NCBI GenBank assembly: GCA_030652345.1
Contig: JAUSAU010000092.1
Span: 1 to 49,156, forward strand
Reading direction: 5' to 3'
Length of the DNA: 49,156 nucleotides
Source of the DNA: Coriobacteriia bacterium
GTDB lineage: Bacteria > Actinomycetota > Coriobacteriia > Anaerosomatales > PALSA-660
The notes under the pieces were generated by a model. It ran no database searches and was not told the DNA's origin. It saw nothing but the letters and a program-made list of their open reading frames with translations. Shown piece after piece: positions 3,901 to 46,376 of the stretch. Position 1 is the stretch's first letter, and every line of letters begins with the position of its first letter. Both the position numbers and the translations under genes were made by a program.

Positions 3901-5238
3901 ATGGCACCCAAGTTCGACAAGGATTTCGTGCTCAAGACCGTTCAGGAGCGCGATGTCCACTTCGTGCGTTTCTGGTTCACCGACGTTCTGGGCATGCTCA
4001 AGTCGTTCGCCGTGACCGACACCGAGCTCGAGAACGCCTTCGAGGAGGGCATGGGCTTCGACGGCTCCTCCATCGACGGCTTCACGCGCCTCGAGGAGTC
4101 GGACATGGTCGCCTTCCCGAACCCCGAGACGTTCCAGGTCCTCCCGTGGCGTCCGTCCGAGCAGGGCGTCGGCCGCATGTTCTGCGACATCACCAAGCCC
4201 GACGGCTCGCCGTTCGAGGGCGACCCGCGCTTCGCGCTGAAGCGTATGACCCAGAAGGCCGCCGATCTCGGCTTCACGATGTACGTCGGCCCCGAGCTCG
4301 AGTACTTCTACTTCGCTGACGATCAGGACACCGAGGTCCTCGACAACGGTGGCTACTTCGACCTCACCCCGCTCGACATCGCGTCGGACCTCCGTCGCGA
4401 GACCGTGCTCACGCTTGAGAAGATGGGCATCCCGGTCGAGTACTCGCACCACGAGGTCGCGCCGTCGCAGCACGAGATCGACCTGCGCTACTCGGACGCG
4501 CTCGGCATGGCCGACAACGTCATGACCTACCGTCTGGTCGTCAAGGAGATCGCCCTGCAGAACGGCGTCTACGCCACGTTCATGCCGAAGCCGATCTTCG
4601 GTCAGAACGGCTCGGGTATGCACGTCCACCAATCGCTGTTCACCAAGGACGGCAACGCTTTCTTCGACGCCAACGACCCCGAGGGCTTCAACCTCTCCCA
4701 GACCGCGAAGCACTACATCGCCGGCCTGCTGAAGTACGCGCCGGAGTTCTGCGCCATCACCAACCCGCTCGTGAACTCCTACAAGCGTCTGGTGCCGGGC
4801 TATGAGGCTCCCGTCTACATCGCGTGGGCCCGCCGCAACCGCTCCGCGCTCGTCCGCGTCCCGATGTACAAGCCGGGCAAGGAGAACGCCACTCGTCTCG
4901 AGCTGCGTTCGCCGGACCCGTCGGCCAACCCGTACCTCGCCTTCGCGGCGATGCTCGGCGCCGGCCTCAAGGGCATCGAGGAGAAGCTGCCGCTCGCTCC
5001 CGAGGCCACGAACAACATCTTCAAGATGAGCGATGAGGAGCTCGACGCCGCCGGCATCTACACGCTGCCGGGCACGCTGGGCGAGGCCATCGACAAGTTC
5101 GAGAAGTCCGAGCTCATGAAGGAGGTCCTGGGCGAGCACATCCACGAGTTCTACGTGAAGAACAAGCGTGCCGAGTGGGATGAGTATCGCCTTCAGGTCA
5201 CCGAGTGGGAGCTGGACCGCTACCTCTCGGTCATCTAG
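3901..5238 (+). CDS. glnA: Type I glutamine synthetase (GSI-alpha)
   Basis: Glutamine synthetase makes glutamine from glutamate, ammonia and ATP as a cytoplasmic dodecamer. The 445-residue product has the family landmarks: MGFDGSSIDGF near residue 47, the ATP and metal ligands in VGPELEYFYF near 128, and SGMHVHQSLF near 238. The PNPETFQVLPW loop and NPYLAFAAMLGAGLKGI are also present. The Arg in DGFTRLEESDM and the absence of the 25-residue insertion place it in the GSI-alpha subtype. At the usual adenylylation site the sequence reads NNIFKMSDEE, with Phe where the beta subtype has Tyr. It should therefore not be controlled by GlnE-type adenylylation. AAGGAGG lies seven bases before the ATG. 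Upstream is a GlnR-type half site, downstream a strong terminator and a GlnR-like gene. Confidence 0.97.
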   Translation: MAPKFDKDFVLKTVQERDVHFVRFWFTDVLGMLKSFAVTDTELENAFEEGMGFDGSSIDGFTRLEESDMVAFPNPETFQVLPWRPSEQGVGRMFCDITKPDGSPFEGDPRFALKRMTQKAADLGFTMYVGPELEYFYFADDQDTEVLDNGGYFDLTPLDIASDLRRETVLTLEKMGIPVEYSHHEVAPSQHEIDLRYSDALGMADNVMTYRLVVKEIALQNGVYATFMPKPIFGQNGSGMHVHQSLFTKDGNAFFDANDPEGFNLSQTAKHYIAGLLKYAPEFCAITNPLVNSYKRLVPGYEAPVYIAWARRNRSALVRVPMYKPGKENATRLELRSPDPSANPYLAFAAMLGAGLKGIEEKLPLAPEATNNIFKMSDEELDAAGIYTLPGTLGEAIDKFEKSELMKEVLGEHIHEFYVKNKRAEWDEYRLQVTEWELDRYLSVI

Positions 5239-19984: not shown

Positions 19985-20016
19985 ATTCATATGAATGAAC
20001 GCTCATATGAATACCC
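19981..20016. promoter_or_regulatory. ArsR/SmtB-type autoregulatory operator
   Basis: A perfect inverted repeat with 14-bp arms (19981-19994 and 20003-20016) and an 8-base spacer spans the -10, the presumed start site and the first codons of the regulator. Each half contains TCATATGAAT, itself nearly palindromic. Placement and symmetry fit repression by an ArsR/SmtB dimer that releases on metal binding. Confidence 0.8.
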
Positions 20017-20377
20017 GGGTGATCCCGGGTGCGAAGCGCGCATCGTCGATGCGGGGGCCTTGGCGCGGGCCGGGGCCGCTCTTCCTGACGATCACGCCCG
20101 CGCGCGGCTCGTCGGCATCTTCGCGGCGCTGGCCGATCCGACACGGCTTCGCTTGCTGCTCGCTCTCGCCGAGGAGCCGCTGTGCGTGTGCGAACTCACG
20201 GACATCGCGGGCGTCTCGCAGTCGGGCGTCTCCCACCAGCTGCGCCTCCTGCGCGATCTCGACCTTGTCGCATGGGAGCGCGACGGGAAGCGCGTGGTCT
20301 ACCGGCTTGCGGACGATCACGTACGGGACCTGCTTGCGATAGGGCTGTCTCACGCCGCGGAGGTCGAGGGCGCATGA
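19991..20377 (+). CDS. ArsR/SmtB-family metal-sensing repressor
   Basis: This 128-residue winged-helix repressor should leave DNA when metal binds. The core LADPTRLRLLLALAEEPLCVCEL, followed by QSGVSHQLRLLRDLDLV, is diagnostic. The CVC pair (Cys65, Cys67) with an N-terminal Cys14 resembles the thiolate site of CadC (Cd, Pb, Zn) or ArsR. The neighbouring Zn/Cd/Pb-type ATPase favours CadC-like sensing (inference). No Shine-Dalgarno is seen; a -10 seven bases upstream suggests a leaderless message starting at ATG 19991. The stop overlaps the ATG of the ATPase gene by ATGA, so the pair is translationally coupled. A large palindrome over the start codon is the probable operator. Confidence 0.92.
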   Translation: MNERSYEYPGDPGCEARIVDAGALARAGAALPDDHARARLVGIFAALADPTRLRLLLALAEEPLCVCELTDIAGVSQSGVSHQLRLLRDLDLVAWERDGKRVVYRLADDHVRDLLAIGLSHAAEVEGA

Positions 20378-22575
20378 GCGCGGCGAGGAGCCAGGCCGTC
20401 TGGCGTGTGACCGGCCTCGATTGACCCGACTGCGCGCGGACCGTGGAGAAGTCCGTACGACAGATCGATGGTGTCACGGCCGCGGACCTCAGCTTCGCCA
20501 CGGGTCTTCTCGCGGTGGAGTTCGAGCGAGGTGCCGATCCGGGTGCGGCCGTGGCGGCGCGGGTCCGTGCGAGCGGGCACTCGCTCGAGGCCGTCGACGC
20601 ACCGGCGCCCGGTGGCGTCGCCGGCTGGTGGGGGACGCATGGGCACACCACGATGCTCGTGCTGTGCGCCGCGGCGGCCGGGGCCGGGTACGTCCTGGCG
20701 GCGGTCAGCGCCGGCGGGGGAGTGACGGCGCCCGCGAGCGTTGCGTTCCTGTTCGCCGTCGTCGCGGGCGGCGGGCTGACGGCTCGTCGTGCGCTGGCCT
20801 CCCTGCGTGCGGTCTCACTCGACATGAACGTGCTCATGTCGCTCGCTGTGGCCGGTGCGATCGGTATCGGCGCGTACGAGGAGGCGGCCACCGTCGTTCT
20901 CCTCTTCTCGCTCGGTCAGTACCTTGAGAGCCGAGCGCTCGCCCGTACGCGGCGCTCCATCCGCAATCTCGTCGCACTCACACCCGTGCTCGCCCGCGTG
21001 CGCCGGGACGGGCGCGTGGTCGAGCTGGCGCCCGCCGACGCGCTCGTGGGCGACGTGCTCGTCGTCCGGCCGGGCGAGCGGGTCTCACTCGACGGGATGG
21101 TGCTCGCGGGCTGCTCCGCGCTCGATGAGTCGCCGATCACCGGAGAGTCGGCCCCGGTCGACAAGCGCCCGGGCGACGCCGTGTTCGCCGGTACTCTGAA
21201 CACCAGCGGCCTGCTCGAGGTCGAGGTCACGTCCATCGCTGCGGACTCGACGCTCGCTCGCGTGATCTACCTGGTCGAGGAGGCGCAGTCCCGGCGTGCG
21301 CCCGCACAACTCCTGGTCGACCGCTTCACGCGCTACTACACGCCGGCCGTCGTCCTCGGGGCCGTTCTGGTCGCTGTGGTGCCCCCCGCGCTCGGGCTCG
21401 GCGACGGGGGTCAGTGGTTCTACCGGGCGCTTGTGGTGCTCGTCGTGAGCTGCCCGTGTGCACTGGTGATCTCGACCCCGGTCGCGATCGTCTCGGCCAT
21501 CACGCGCGCGACGCGCGACGGGGTGCTCGTCAAGGGCGGCGCTCATCTGGAGACGGCCGCCCGGGTCATAGCCGTCGCGTTCGACAAGACCGGCACGCTG
21601 ACGTGCGGCCGCCCCGAAGTGCGCGAGATCGTCCCCTTCGGCGGACTCGACTCCGCGGAGGTCCTGCGCCTCGCCGCCGCTCTCGAATCGGGCTCGACGC
21701 ATCCCATCGCCGCCGCGGTCGTCCGCGCGAACGGCGGCGCTCCGGCGCTGACGGTCTCGGGTCTCACCGACGTGCCCGGACGCGGCGTCCGCGCCGACGT
21801 CGACGGGCGCGCGCTCAGCATCGGCAGTCCGGAACTCGCCGCCGAAGCGCTCGGTTCGACCCGGGAGGCGCGTGACGCCGTGGAGCGTCTCGAGGCGTCC
21901 GGGATGACCGTCCTCGTCCTGTTCGAGGAGGCGGGACCGCTCGGCGTCATCGGGACGGCCGACGAGGTGCGCCCTGAGGCCGCCGCGGTCGTCGAGGCGC
22001 TGCGCCGCGGCGGGGTCGGTCATGTCGTCATGCTCACGGGGGACAGCGAGCGCACCGCCGCAGCGGTCGCCCGAGCGGTGGGGATCACCGAGTTCCGGGC
22101 GCGTCTCATGCCGGAGGACAAGGTTGACGCGGTGCGGTCGCTGCGCGAGCGCTATGGGACGGTCGCGATGATCGGTGACGGCGTGAACGACGCCCCCGCG
22201 CTCGCTCTCGCGGACCTGAGCGTCGCGATGGGGGCCGCCGGGTCGGACACCGCGATCGAGACCGCCGACGTCGCCCTGATGGCTCCCAACCTGTTCGCGC
22301 TTCCCGGACTGCTCCGTCTCGGGCACCGTACGCGGGCGATCATCATCGAGAACGTCGTCTTCTCGATCGCGACGAAGGTCGTCGTGCTCATCCTCGCCGT
22401 CCTCGGTTTTGCGCCGCTGTGGCTGGCGGTCTTCGCCGACACGGGCGTCTCACTGCTCGTGACGCTCAACGGGCTGCGGCTCCTCGGTGCCCCCCGGACG
22501 GACGGACGGACGGGCTTCGGGGACGCAACGCGCGTGAGCGGCACCCCGCCGGCAGGCGTTGACGCCGGCATCTGA
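20374..22575 (+). CDS. P1B-type Zn/Cd/Pb-exporting ATPase with in-frame TGA (candidate selenocysteine) in its HMA domain
   Basis: This membrane ATPase should export soft divalent metals. Read through one TGA (20422-20424, residue 17), the frame gives 733 residues from ATG 20374, which overlaps the arsR-type stop by ATGA. The N-terminal HMA domain (about 10-75) then reads VTGLD-stop-PDCARTVEKSV, so the TGA stands exactly for the first Cys of the GxxCxxC metal site. The rest is complete: TGES in ITGESAPVDK, the transmembrane SCPCALVIST, DKTGTLTCG, STHPIAAAVV and MIGDGVNDAPALA. The last helices carry an ATK and ADTG, as in the Zn/Cd/Pb subgroup. A SECIS-like hairpin follows the TGA. Alternatives are a start at GTG 20443 lacking the HMA domain, a nonsense mutation or a sequencing error. 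Confidence 0.85.
20422..20459 (+). promoter_or_regulatory. Candidate selenocysteine UGA with bacterial SECIS-like hairpin
   Basis: The UGA is at 20422-20424. A stem CGGAC (20437-20441) with GTCCG (20451-20455) is extended outward by one G-U pair, one mismatch and two GC pairs (20433-20434 with 20458-20459). The nine-base loop (20442-20450) has G as its second base and an internal GG. The loop begins 17 bases after UGA, inside the 16-37 base window I recall for bacterial SECIS elements. Confidence 0.6.
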
Positions 22576-22676: not shown

Positions 22677-23036
22677 GTGGCCACCGATGATGTCATGCGG
22701 TTCTTCGCGCTCTGGATGCTCACGCACGAAGCGGCGGACGAAGGTCTCAAAGCGGCCGTCACGCGCGGGGAGCAGGGTGGCCCCGAGGGCATGGAGGGCG
22801 GTCCGGACGCGTTCGTCGACGGTCTCGCCGCCATGGTGGCCGGCGAAAAGGAACGTCTCAAGGCTGATCTCGCGGCCGGTGCGGTCGATCGGCCCAGCGA
22901 GGACGAGCAGCGCATTGCGCTCGAGGAACTGCGATTCGAGGTGTCGGAGATGCGCGGCCGCATGGATGCACTGACCGGCGCCGTCGAGACGGTGCTCGCG
23001 AAGCTGGACGGCGCAGGGGCGCAGGTGTCGCGATGA
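22677..23036 (+). CDS. Small protein of unknown function, coupled to the ABC1 kinase
   Basis: This is a 119-residue protein I do not recognise. The N-terminal half (FFALWMLTHEAADEGLKAAV) looks helical. The C-terminal third (LRFEVSEMRGRMDALTGAVE) has heptad spacing of a short coiled coil. No signal peptide or membrane helix is seen. GTG 22677 has AAGGGGGAG six bases upstream. The stop overlaps the next start by ATGA, so it is translated with the ABC1 kinase and may be a partner or adaptor of it (inference). Confidence 0.75.
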   Translation: MATDDVMRFFALWMLTHEAADEGLKAAVTRGEQGGPEGMEGGPDAFVDGLAAMVAGEKERLKADLAAGAVDRPSEDEQRIALEELRFEVSEMRGRMDALTGAVETVLAKLDGAGAQVSR

Positions 23037-44435: not shown

Positions 44436-46376
44436 ATGGCAACCACCAAGCTTTATGAAGTCGACCCGATCTCCCGCATCGAGGGTCACCTCGGCGTCAA
44501 GGTCACGGTCGATGATGTCACCGGCAAGATCACCGAAGCCGACGCCCATGGCAACCTGTGGCGCGGTTTCGAGAACTTCCTGGTCGGCCGTCGTGCAAAC
44601 GACGCGATCACGTTCACGCAGCGTATCTGCGGCGTCTGCCCGGTCCCGCACGGCACGGCCGCGACGTTCGCGGCTGACAGCGTCATGGGAGTCAGCAACG
44701 GCTACCTGACGTTCGCCCAGCGCGACTCGGTCGGAACGTCTGACGACGGCATCCCGAAGGCCGCCGTTCTCGTCCGCAACATGATCCTCGGCTCCGAGTT
44801 CCTGATGTCGAGCATCACGCACTTCTACCACCTCGTGGCACAGAGCTACGTCCAGGGCCCGCCGATCCCGCCGTGGACCCCGTACTTCCCCCAGGCCCAG
44901 TACGCGCCGCTGCTGGTCAATAACGGTGGCCCGTTGGGTGCGGCTCGTGCCGTGCCTGCCGTCGACGGCACCGGCAAGCCGGTGGACCTGTGGTCCGCGG
45001 TCATCAAGCAGTACGTCAAGGCGCTGCGCATCCGTCGCCTGACCTTCGAGGCCGGTGCGCTCTTCGCCGGTCGTATGCCGATGGTCTCCGCACTGGTCGC
45101 CGGCGGCACGACGAACCGCTTCGCCACCCGCCAGGAGTTCATCGACAAGTGCGATGCGTTCAAGGCCGCGATGGACGAGGTCGGCCGGTTCGTGATCTCC
45201 GAGTACATCCCGCTCGCTCTCACGCTGTCCTACCTCTATCCCGAGTACGACAACATCAACAACGTCGGCGGCCAGGGCTACGGCGGCGGCGTGGGCAACT
45301 TCCTCGCCTGGGGCGGTTTCCCCGGTATCGATGAGGCAGGCACACTCTTCCTCAAGGGCGGCGTGAAGCTCAAGGGCGGCGCGACGACGAACCTGCTGGT
45401 CAACCGTGCCAACCTCGGTGCGGCCAAGACAGCCGTCGAGACCAACCTCCGCGAGGTCATCACGCGCTCCCGCTACGCGAACACCGGTGGCTACGAGGGT
45501 GGCGACACCGCCTATCCGGGCTCTGTCGTGCGCACCGAGCCGAGCCGCGATTCCGCGGCCAAGTACTCATGGATGAAGGCCCCGCGCTGGGGCGGCAACC
45601 CGATGGAAGTCGGTCCGCTCGCGCGCATGGTCATCAACGGCAAGTACCTGGACGACGGTGGCCTGCTCGTCAGCAACGCCCCGACCGCTCCGGCTGCCGT
45701 GCAGGCCTACTACGCGCTGTATGTCAGCGGCGCCGGCCTGGACACCACGGTCCTCCACGCCGACCTGGTCAACGGCCTCGCCGGCTCGCTCGGCGGCGGC
45801 GCAGCGGCGCTCGCGGCGGTCGGCGGCCACATCCTCGGACTGCGTGGCGGACTCTCCACCATGGACCGCCTGCGCGCCCGTGCGATCGAGTCGTTCTGGA
45901 TGATCAACATGCTGCTCGGAGGCGTCACCAAGGGCGCGAACTCCGACGCCATGACGTTCTCCGGTGGCCTGGTCGACGAGCTCAAGGCCCTGTGGCCCGT
46001 GGGCGACGCGACCGGCCCGTCGTTCTACCGCAACACCGCAGCCCCGCTGGCCGTCACCTCCGGCTACGGTCTGGTCGAGGCGCCCCGTGGCGCTCTGGGC
46101 CACTTCGTCACCGCGTCCGGTGGCAAGATCTCGTCCTACCAGTGCGTCGTCCCCACCACGTGGAACGGCTCCCCCAAGGACGGCACCGGTGTGGTCAACG
46201 AGGGCAACACCAGCGCCACCAAGCGTGGCCCGATCGAGCAGGCGATGATCGGTACGCCGTTCGACGCCACCGTCTCGATCGCCGCAGCAGGCACCAAGCG
46301 CGCCGCACTCAGCGGTGTCGAGGTCCTGCGCGTCGCCCAGTCATTCGATCCGTGCATCGCATGCGCGGTCCACTAG
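44436..46376 (+). CDS. [NiFe] hydrogenase large subunit, encoded in mature form
   Basis: This is the catalytic subunit with the NiFe(CN)2CO site. The 646-residue protein has the L0/L1 motifs PISRIEGHLG and TQRICGVCP (Cys65, Cys68), and the C-terminal L2 motif DPCIACAVH (Cys640, Cys643). The four Ni ligands are Cys, so it is not of the NiFeSe type. The reading frame stops directly after the His of L2; most relatives carry a further peptide that a maturation protease removes. It is longer than usual, with a Gly/Ala-rich insertion after VNGLAGSLGGGAAALAAVGG. GGAGAGGAGGAAAG lies just before the ATG. It follows the small subunit by 22 bases. A Coriobacteria-type uptake group is possible. Confidence 0.93.
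   Translation: MATTKLYEVDPISRIEGHLGVKVTVDDVTGKITEADAHGNLWRGFENFLVGRRANDAITFTQRICGVCPVPHGTAATFAADSVMGVSNGYLTFAQRDSVGTSDDGIPKAAVLVRNMILGSEFLMSSITHFYHLVAQSYVQGPPIPPWTPYFPQAQYAPLLVNNGGPLGAARAVPAVDGTGKPVDLWSAVIKQYVKALRIRRLTFEAGALFAGRMPMVSALVAGGTTNRFATRQEFIDKCDAFKAAMDEVGRFVISEYIPLALTLSYLYPEYDNINNVGGQGYGGGVGNFLAWGGFPGIDEAGTLFLKGGVKLKGGATTNLLVNRANLGAAKTAVETNLREVITRSRYANTGGYEGGDTAYPGSVVRTEPSRDSAAKYSWMKAPRWGGNPMEVGPLARMVINGKYLDDGGLLVSNAPTAPAAVQAYYALYVSGAGLDTTVLHADLVNGLAGSLGGGAAALAAVGGHILGLRGGLSTMDRLRARAIESFWMINMLLGGVTKGANSDAMTFSGGLVDELKALWPVGDATGPSFYRNTAAPLAVTSGYGLVEAPRGALGHFVTASGGKISSYQCVVPTTWNGSPKDGTGVVNEGNTSATKRGPIEQAMIGTPFDATVSIAAAGTKRAALSGVEVLRVAQSFDPCIACAVH

Follow-up and report, generated by a model that had tools for sequence, protein, structure and literature searches.

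How is an ATPase gene read when a TGA codon interrupts the very motif by which its product would bind metal? The question is raised by a locus in a 49,156-nucleotide stretch of a Coriobacteriia bacterium (assembly GCA_030652345.1, contig JAUSAU010000092.1), which was analysed as a whole and is referred to here as the window. A first-pass annotation, made from the sequence alone, had described an ATPase frame that overlaps an upstream regulator gene and contains a lone TGA in place of the first Cys of the metal-binding CxxC, and had proposed that this TGA specifies selenocysteine (Sec).

A P1B-type ATPase gene with one in-frame TGA

The following features of the gene, its product and the adjoining regulator were assigned:

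19991..20377, + strand: ArsR/SmtB-type regulator with an LCVCEL motif and an ATGA overlap with the ATPase start (PF01022, E 4.4e-17; sequence)
20374..22575, + strand: predicted Sec-containing ZntA/CadA-type P1B ATPase, 733 residues with Sec17 (TIGR01525, TIGR01512, ZntA 4umv)
20392..20589, + strand: N-terminal HMA metal-binding domain, residues about 7-72, containing the TGA (PF00403, 1mwy)
20422..20424, + strand: TGA very probably read as selenocysteine (Sec17), the first residue of UxxC (TGA in some relatives, Cys in others)
21451..21459, + strand: CPC transport-site motif, residues 360-362 (translation; aligned with CPC of ZntA 4umv)
21583..21585, + strand: Asp of DKTGTLT, residue 404 (translation; aligned with DKTGTLT of 4umv)

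Sequence and translation bore out the annotated frame, which spans 733 residues with a single internal TGA (residue 17) in addition to its terminal TGA, and whose start codon shares ATGA with the stop of the regulator gene 5' of it. The residues flanking the internal TGA are RVTGLD-U-PDC-ARTVEKSV. With U entered as Cys, the Pfam HMA model (PF00403) matched residues 11-51 at 31.1 bits (cut-off 24.8), and the ZntA HMA structure 1mwy aligned with residues 8-72 (E 9.6e-10). Comparison with the ZntA structure 4umv (E 1.2e-132) by phmmer placed residue 17 opposite the first Cys of GMDCAACAR, which is Cys59 when counted from the printed start; the Pfam and phmmer matches together uphold the annotation's claim that the TGA stands where the HMA CxxC has its first Cys.

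ZntA-type P1B Zn/Cd/Pb ATPases are marked by CPC, DKTGTLT and a C-terminal Asp in ADTG, all of which were found in the window ATPase by alignment to 4umv; Asp404 of DKTGTLT is presumably the phosphorylated residue. The alignment with ZntA (Shigella/E. coli type) covers residues 7-704 and has DCxxC, CPC, DKTGTLT, GDGxNDAP and ADTG in common, whereas the window ATPase differs in the predicted Sec at the first Cys of the HMA CxxC and in its scores against narrow ZntA models. Indeed, the scores exceeded the cut-offs of TIGR01525 (582 bits, cut-off 346) and TIGR01512 (513 bits, cut-off 313.5), and lay under those of the NCBIfam ZntA models NF033775 and NF008262 (527 and 590 bits, cut-offs 1240 and 1005, respectively), which places the protein within the family but outside the narrow ZntA group. 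A protein search with residues 1-140 returned 16 matches, including the window's own record, and none of these was named a selenoprotein; a search of viral_contigs returned no relative of the ATPase.

Distribution of TGA and cysteine codons among relatives

Alignment of homologues, which had been proposed as a check on the Sec reading, revealed both TGA and Cys at this position: among the best 80 of 364 genome-contig relatives, the aligned codon was TGA in 7 and TGC or TGT in 73. The class sample, 396 genomes drawn from the class to which G002 belongs (a named Coriobacteriia MAG and the source of locus L005), contained 202 genomes with a match at threshold. As the loci opened were those among the matches listed, together with 60 further stretches, more class-sample genomes may carry TGA than the at least 42 genomes besides the window in which it was found at the HMA codon (41 of the class sample and G007). 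Restriction of the TGA to a single strain, named beforehand as grounds for abandoning the Sec reading, is therefore not what these genomes exhibit. In total, 94 distinct ATPases were assembled, and at least 49 loci, including the window, carry the Sec motif; these counts are inflated by kinship among the sequences, and the genomes are drafts of unstated completeness.

Two predicted Sec families were distinguished among these ATPases. The window's family (GLDUPDC) is 52-65% identical to the window ATPase and comprises 36 distinct 45-nt sequences, including that of the window, with TGA at the same codon. The second family (ITULDCAAKFEKNV and near forms), which we take to be CadA-like, is 44-46% identical to the window ATPase and occurs at no fewer than 12 loci, i.e. 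at least 12, in the class sample. Like the window's family, it has the predicted Sec in place of the first Cys of CxxC, but it has Thr rather than Asp before Sec and a different hairpin, with loop GAGAA. At four second-family loci (L129, L131, L133 and L134), the ATPase gene with the Sec motif adjoins another ATPase gene without an aligned HMA.

Trees were built by a quick method. The TGA label requires 8 changes on a 92-row tree and 10 on a 120-row tree, from which 5 rows without HMA and L169 were dropped and to which 14 Cys rows from the genome-contig relatives were added; on each tree, at least 4 changes are forced by starred branches. Predicted Sec and Cys are thus swapped several times on the tree. 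The window falls in a group of seven (support 99) with six TGA members and one Cys member (L002), its TGA relatives being those of G114, G134, G001, G119 and G009. L014, the locus of G007, a Rhodocyclaceae MAG, is probably contamination, since its first 600 nt are identical to the G059 copy of the class sample.

In L003, three consecutive HMA domains were observed at about 4447-5000, with Cys (YCAGC), predicted Sec (GLDUPDC) and Cys (GLDCADC), respectively; the HMA aligned to that of the window has Cys, the HMA before it has TGA and the one further 5' has Cys (by eye).

Codon usage around the TGA

Before the TGA, G, L and D are invariant in all 36 sequences of the window's family, with varying third bases in the G and L codons; on its 3' side, P, D, C and R (codon +5) are likewise unchanged, with synonymous variation. 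The synonymous variants observed on the two sides include GGG/GGC/GGA/GGT, CCC/CCG/CCT, GAC/GAT and TGC/TGT. Both sides of the TGA therefore appear to be translated in one frame, given that the residues are invariant while their third bases vary.

At codon +7, 34 of the 36 TGA copies have GTG and one has TTG, whereas GTG is present in 5 of 20 Cys copies. When only Val codons at +7 are considered, GTG accounts for 34 of 35 in TGA copies versus 5 of 12 in Cys copies (p 9e-5). The second family has TTC at this codon in 7 of 7 sequences.

The Asp codon preceding the TGA (20419-20421 in the window) was observed to be GAT in 36 of 36 TGA copies of the window's family. Among near Cys copies, GAT is used in 5 of 21, and the ATPase bodies contain 419 GAT and 1470 GAC codons for Asp (22% GAT). 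The U directly before UGA thus seems to be kept in the window's family; a GAT preference was not seen in 20 Bacillota copies, in which Asp is encoded by GAC in 7 and by GAT in 3.

A SECIS-like hairpin downstream of the UGA

Downstream of the UGA, the following features were assigned:

20436..20456, + strand: SECIS-like hairpin GCGGAC / GUCCGU, 6 pairs (fold; 36 of 36 TGA sequences versus null; pair counts)
20442..20450, + strand: apical loop CGUGGAGAA, with CGU(G) kept in nearly all relatives (alignment; exceptions L116, CTTG, and L094, CGTC)
20443..20445, + strand: GTG that serves as start in the public protein record P0002 (710 aa), inside the SECIS-like loop and with no Shine-Dalgarno-like stretch before it

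Bacterial SECIS elements carry G or GU in the hairpin loop, and the stem of the E. coli fdhF SECIS starts 11 nt after the UGA, with GU in its loop. The window hairpin resembles the fdhF element in its 11-nt spacing from the UGA and in the GU of its loop; unlike that element, it has a loop of 9 nt (shorter in a second register, see below) and no bulged U was noted. As a candidate SECIS, it follows the UGA closely and has G/GU in its loop, with covariation in one register only.

Folded by itself, the window hairpin is modest (z -1.77, 9 of 200 shuffles as good), and single-sequence folding was replaced by comparison because it is weak as evidence. The 36 TGA sequences of the window's family align gap-free over the 45 nt, and all 36 passed the hairpin criterion, whereas 500 draws of a synonymous-codon null averaged 15.3 and never exceeded 24. 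Cys HMA copies passed in 6 of 20 cases (null 6.7), and L002, the Cys member of the window's tree group, had no hairpin by the same criterion in its HMA copy.

A single structure for all 36 sequences was rejected, as pair 17-33 is absent in 10 and pair 18-32 in 11 of them, and 11 fit another register. The common register joins GCGGAC to GUCCGU across the 9-nt loop; in the second register (11 sequences), the partner strand lies nearer, leaving a loop of at most 5 nt. The 5' strand and the loop CGU remain at a constant distance from the UGA in both registers, except in L116, where the GU is lost. No pair of the common register is changed on both sides, and 120 of 500 shuffles reached the covariation score of this register. 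Of the 11 sequences of the second register, 6 have GC and 5 have AU at one pair; the register's 6 cells with changes on both sides were matched by 0 of 500 shuffles and its count of pairs with double changes by 98 of 500, figures that are optimistic, given that the subset was picked after viewing the sequences and that these are related.

In the second family the stem is longer, with GAGAA as the loop, and one of its pairs is CG in 4 sequences, GC in 2 and unpaired in 1. None of its 7 sequences passed the strong-hairpin criterion (there is an inner mismatch in the stem), and its mean fold energy is -13.5, versus -9.4 (sd 1.1) for the null. Weak folds were found in several Bacillota copies (L173, L180, L183 and L186).

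Alternative readings of the TGA codon

Taken together, the Cys/TGA pairs, the conserved TGA, the SECIS-like hairpins and the Sec machinery of relatives (see below) support the Sec reading first proposed, and the gene very probably encodes a Sec-containing P1B-type Zn/Cd/Pb-exporting ATPase in which UGA codon 17 is decoded as Sec. Apart from the stop codon itself, nothing speaks for a nonsense mutation or a sequencing or assembly error in this one contig, an explanation that is refuted by the homologues: the same codon is TGA in 36 distinct sequences and at least 42 other genomes, which argues against chance or misassembly, and the frame is otherwise intact over 733 codons. An altered code, by which the organism would read UGA as another amino acid, is of equally negligible probability; no point was found in its support, the internal TGA stands opposite Cys in relatives, and TGA serves as a regular stop in the window, where it ends 6 of 15 checked genes, the ATPase included, a usage that refutes this reading.

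It is also very improbable that the UGA is a true stop, with the ATPase beginning at GTG 20443 and the first 16 codons representing a leader or remnant. Such a start is the one given in P0002, which begins 23 residues late so that the metal-binding motif is missing from the record, and a potential start codon is present at codon +7 far more often in TGA copies (GTG 34/36, TTG 1/36) than in Cys copies (GTG 5/20). However, the start of the HMA domain, including the metal loop, would be removed; the GLD preceding the TGA is unchanged in all 36 sequences, with synonymous variation; a GGAGG precedes the ATG, in contrast to the GTG, ahead of which no Shine-Dalgarno-like stretch was found; the second family has TTC there in all 7 sequences; and a loop GU kept for SelB would account for the GTG equally well. 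A related but improbable idea retains Sec decoding and combines the SECIS loop of the window's family with a restart codon (GTG 34/36, TTG 1/36), so that selenium supply would select between the full pump, whose Sec-bearing domain would sense metal, and a pump without a working HMA, made once translation had terminated at the UGA. If true, one element would be both a selenium sensor and an isoform switch for metal export; reinitiation at the GTG is kept as a low-probability reading because the second family has no start codon there.

Selenocysteine machinery in the genomes of relatives

Decoding of the UGA as Sec would depend on SelA, SelB, SelD and tRNA-Sec. SelB scored over cut-off in 167 of the 396 class-sample genomes, i.e. 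in 34 of 41 TGA genomes versus 133 of 355 others, the latter possibly including TGA carriers. SelA was searched for in 75 chosen genomes (42 TGA, 13 near Cys and 20 distant Cys) and scored over cut-off in 35, 10 and 0 of these, respectively; it did not separate TGA from near Cys genomes (35/42 versus 10/13, p 0.69). In the five genomes of the window's tree group that carry TGA (G114, G134, G001, G119 and G009), SelA, SelB, SelD and tRNA-Sec were all over cut-off.

Seven of the 42 TGA genomes had no SelA, and the same seven had no SelB over cut-off, which may reflect gaps in draft genomes. Five of them (G057, G142, G061, G124 and G112) have SelD over cut-off with an in-frame TGA of its own, and G124 also has a tRNA-Sec at 71.8 bits. 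G117 has just a SelD fragment under cut-off, and in G121 the sole find was a tRNA-Sec match of 47.0 bits, equal to the gathering score, so that no trace is left when this match is discounted. Matches near the gathering score of 47 (50.4 in G061, 47.9 in G142, 47.6 in G057 and 47.0 in G121) were not counted, since scores of 47.5-47.8 also occur in distant Cys genomes (G111 and G358) and second matches of about 50 accompany the 71-bit match in G001 and G009. SelD was over cut-off, without an internal TGA, in 4 of the 20 distant Cys genomes (G193, G014, G111 and G358).

L118, a Cys copy, comes from G033, a genome in which neither SelA nor SelB nor SelD scored over cut-off, and it groups with L121, which carries TGA (support 85 and 88); this could be a case of Sec-to-Cys exchange with loss of the machinery.

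Relationship to a predicted selenoprotein family

Whether a complete Sec-containing P1B ATPase had been described was left in doubt by the first-pass annotation, a doubt answered by the tables of earlier work, where UxxC P1B ATPases are in print as a predicted family. A cation-transporting ATPase family with UxxC is tabulated in PMC2398784, PMC9312934 and PMC13188914, the last citing 10.1093/nar/gkm514 for it, and it also appears in PMC5029168 (2016) beside the numbers 25 and 32, read here as organisms and genes. According to a passage of PMC13188914, what exactly such selenoproteins do in heavy metal detoxification needs more study. Judged by titles, no experimental study of a Sec-containing P1B ATPase was found among the papers listed, and the word stem Coriobacteri is absent from a 2026 review.

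The window ATPase, being a ZntA-like ATPase with UxxC, corresponds to the definition of this family and shares both family and motif with its known members (COG2217 ZntA / TIGR01525; example ABB15669.1). The Bacillota sample comprised 398 genomes from the phylum that includes a Desulfotomaculum MAG, and a match was present in 262 of them. TGA-bearing hits among the matches listed were opened in 31 cases (20 of the 23 listed to E 1.1e-159, followed by the other 3 and 8 more), and the TGA lay at the HMA codon in 21 of these; in the other 10, one has an internal TGA elsewhere and nine have TGA that is late, outside the aligned part or unplaced. On the basis of these 21 hits with TGA at the same HMA codon, the window ATPase is regarded as a new member of the known predicted family, and the U of ABB15669.1 is likely to lie inside its HMA domain. 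The later 11 hits include one with TGA at the HMA codon (L193); L194, L196 and L199 have Cys there and no other internal stop, L192 has Cys and late stops, L195, L197, L198 and L201 have no aligned HMA, and L200 gave no match at the threshold used. L191 has an HMA Cys (ITCLDC) and an internal TGA at aligned residue 348, which is Trp in the window.

On the tree, the GLDUPDC family is separate from 19 of the 20 Bacillota TGA rows. The twentieth, L171 (G606), groups with coriobacterial copies and is a probable binning contamination; G606 has no SelA. Within the Bacillota sample, SelA was present in 19 of 20 TGA and 29 of 30 chosen Cys genomes and does not discriminate between them. The present analysis adds many genomes of a single class to a predicted selenoprotein family with little documentation behind it, the new elements being its wide spread in Coriobacteriia, the two SECIS stem registers and the relative with a Cys-Sec-Cys triple HMA.

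Proposed role of Sec17

In ZntA, the loop Asp and two Cys bind Zn(II), Cd(II) and Pb(II), and UxxC is the usual redox motif of selenoproteins. From the comparisons among relatives, it is proposed that SelA, SelB, SelD and tRNA-Sec would decode UGA codon 17, with Sec insertion directed by the hairpin that starts 11 nt past the UGA, and that the product would carry Asp16-Sec17-Pro-Asp-Cys20 in place of the Asp-Cys-x-x-Cys of ZntA. The selenolate of Sec17, being softer and more acidic than a thiolate, could serve as a metal ligand of the cytosolic domain; the HMA domain would catch Zn(II), Cd(II), Pb(II) or Hg(II) and either hand the metal to the membrane CPC site or regulate that site. The upstream ArsR-type regulator presumably switches the genes on in the presence of metal.

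The earlier suggestion that UxxC could alter affinity for soft metals or confer redox sensitivity concerns the function of Sec17 and not the presence of Sec itself. Metal binding is somewhat favoured as its main role. A mainly redox function, in which a Sec17-Cys20 selenenylsulfide would stop metal delivery under oxidation, is considered possible though doubtful: UxxC occurs in many redox selenoprotein families according to a table in PMC13188914, but the Asp before Sec and the whole domain fit a metal-binding fold rather than a thiol oxidoreductase, and no thiol-redox partner was found among the Pfam matches of 20 window ORFs, several of which had no match. The remaining weight falls on other effects or no strong effect. 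Natural Sec/Cys pairs at one defined metal-ligand position provide matched proteins with which selenium in a metal-binding site can be set against selenium in a redox site.

Neighbouring genes

The CVC of the window's regulator is presumably a metal site, as in ArsR/CadC. An ArsR gene upstream of the ATPase is not general, as it was present in 17 of 53 TGA-locus rows, a count that includes 4 second ATPase hits and in which one of the 36 misses has less than 700 nt upstream and an extra HMA in front moves the ATPase start. An ArsR match was found somewhere in 17 of 20 Bacillota loci.

The Pfam matches among the 20 ORFs include glutamate synthase, glutamine synthetase, DNA polymerase I, an S1-domain protein, UvrB, acetyl-CoA synthetase and the large subunit of a NiFe hydrogenase. 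Located 3' of the ATPase gene is a short ORF (22677-23036, 119 aa) without a Pfam match, followed by an ABC1-type kinase gene. The hydrogenase large subunit (44436-46376) has a C-terminal DPCIACAVH, with Cys rather than Sec at what we take to be the position of Sec in NiFeSe enzymes.
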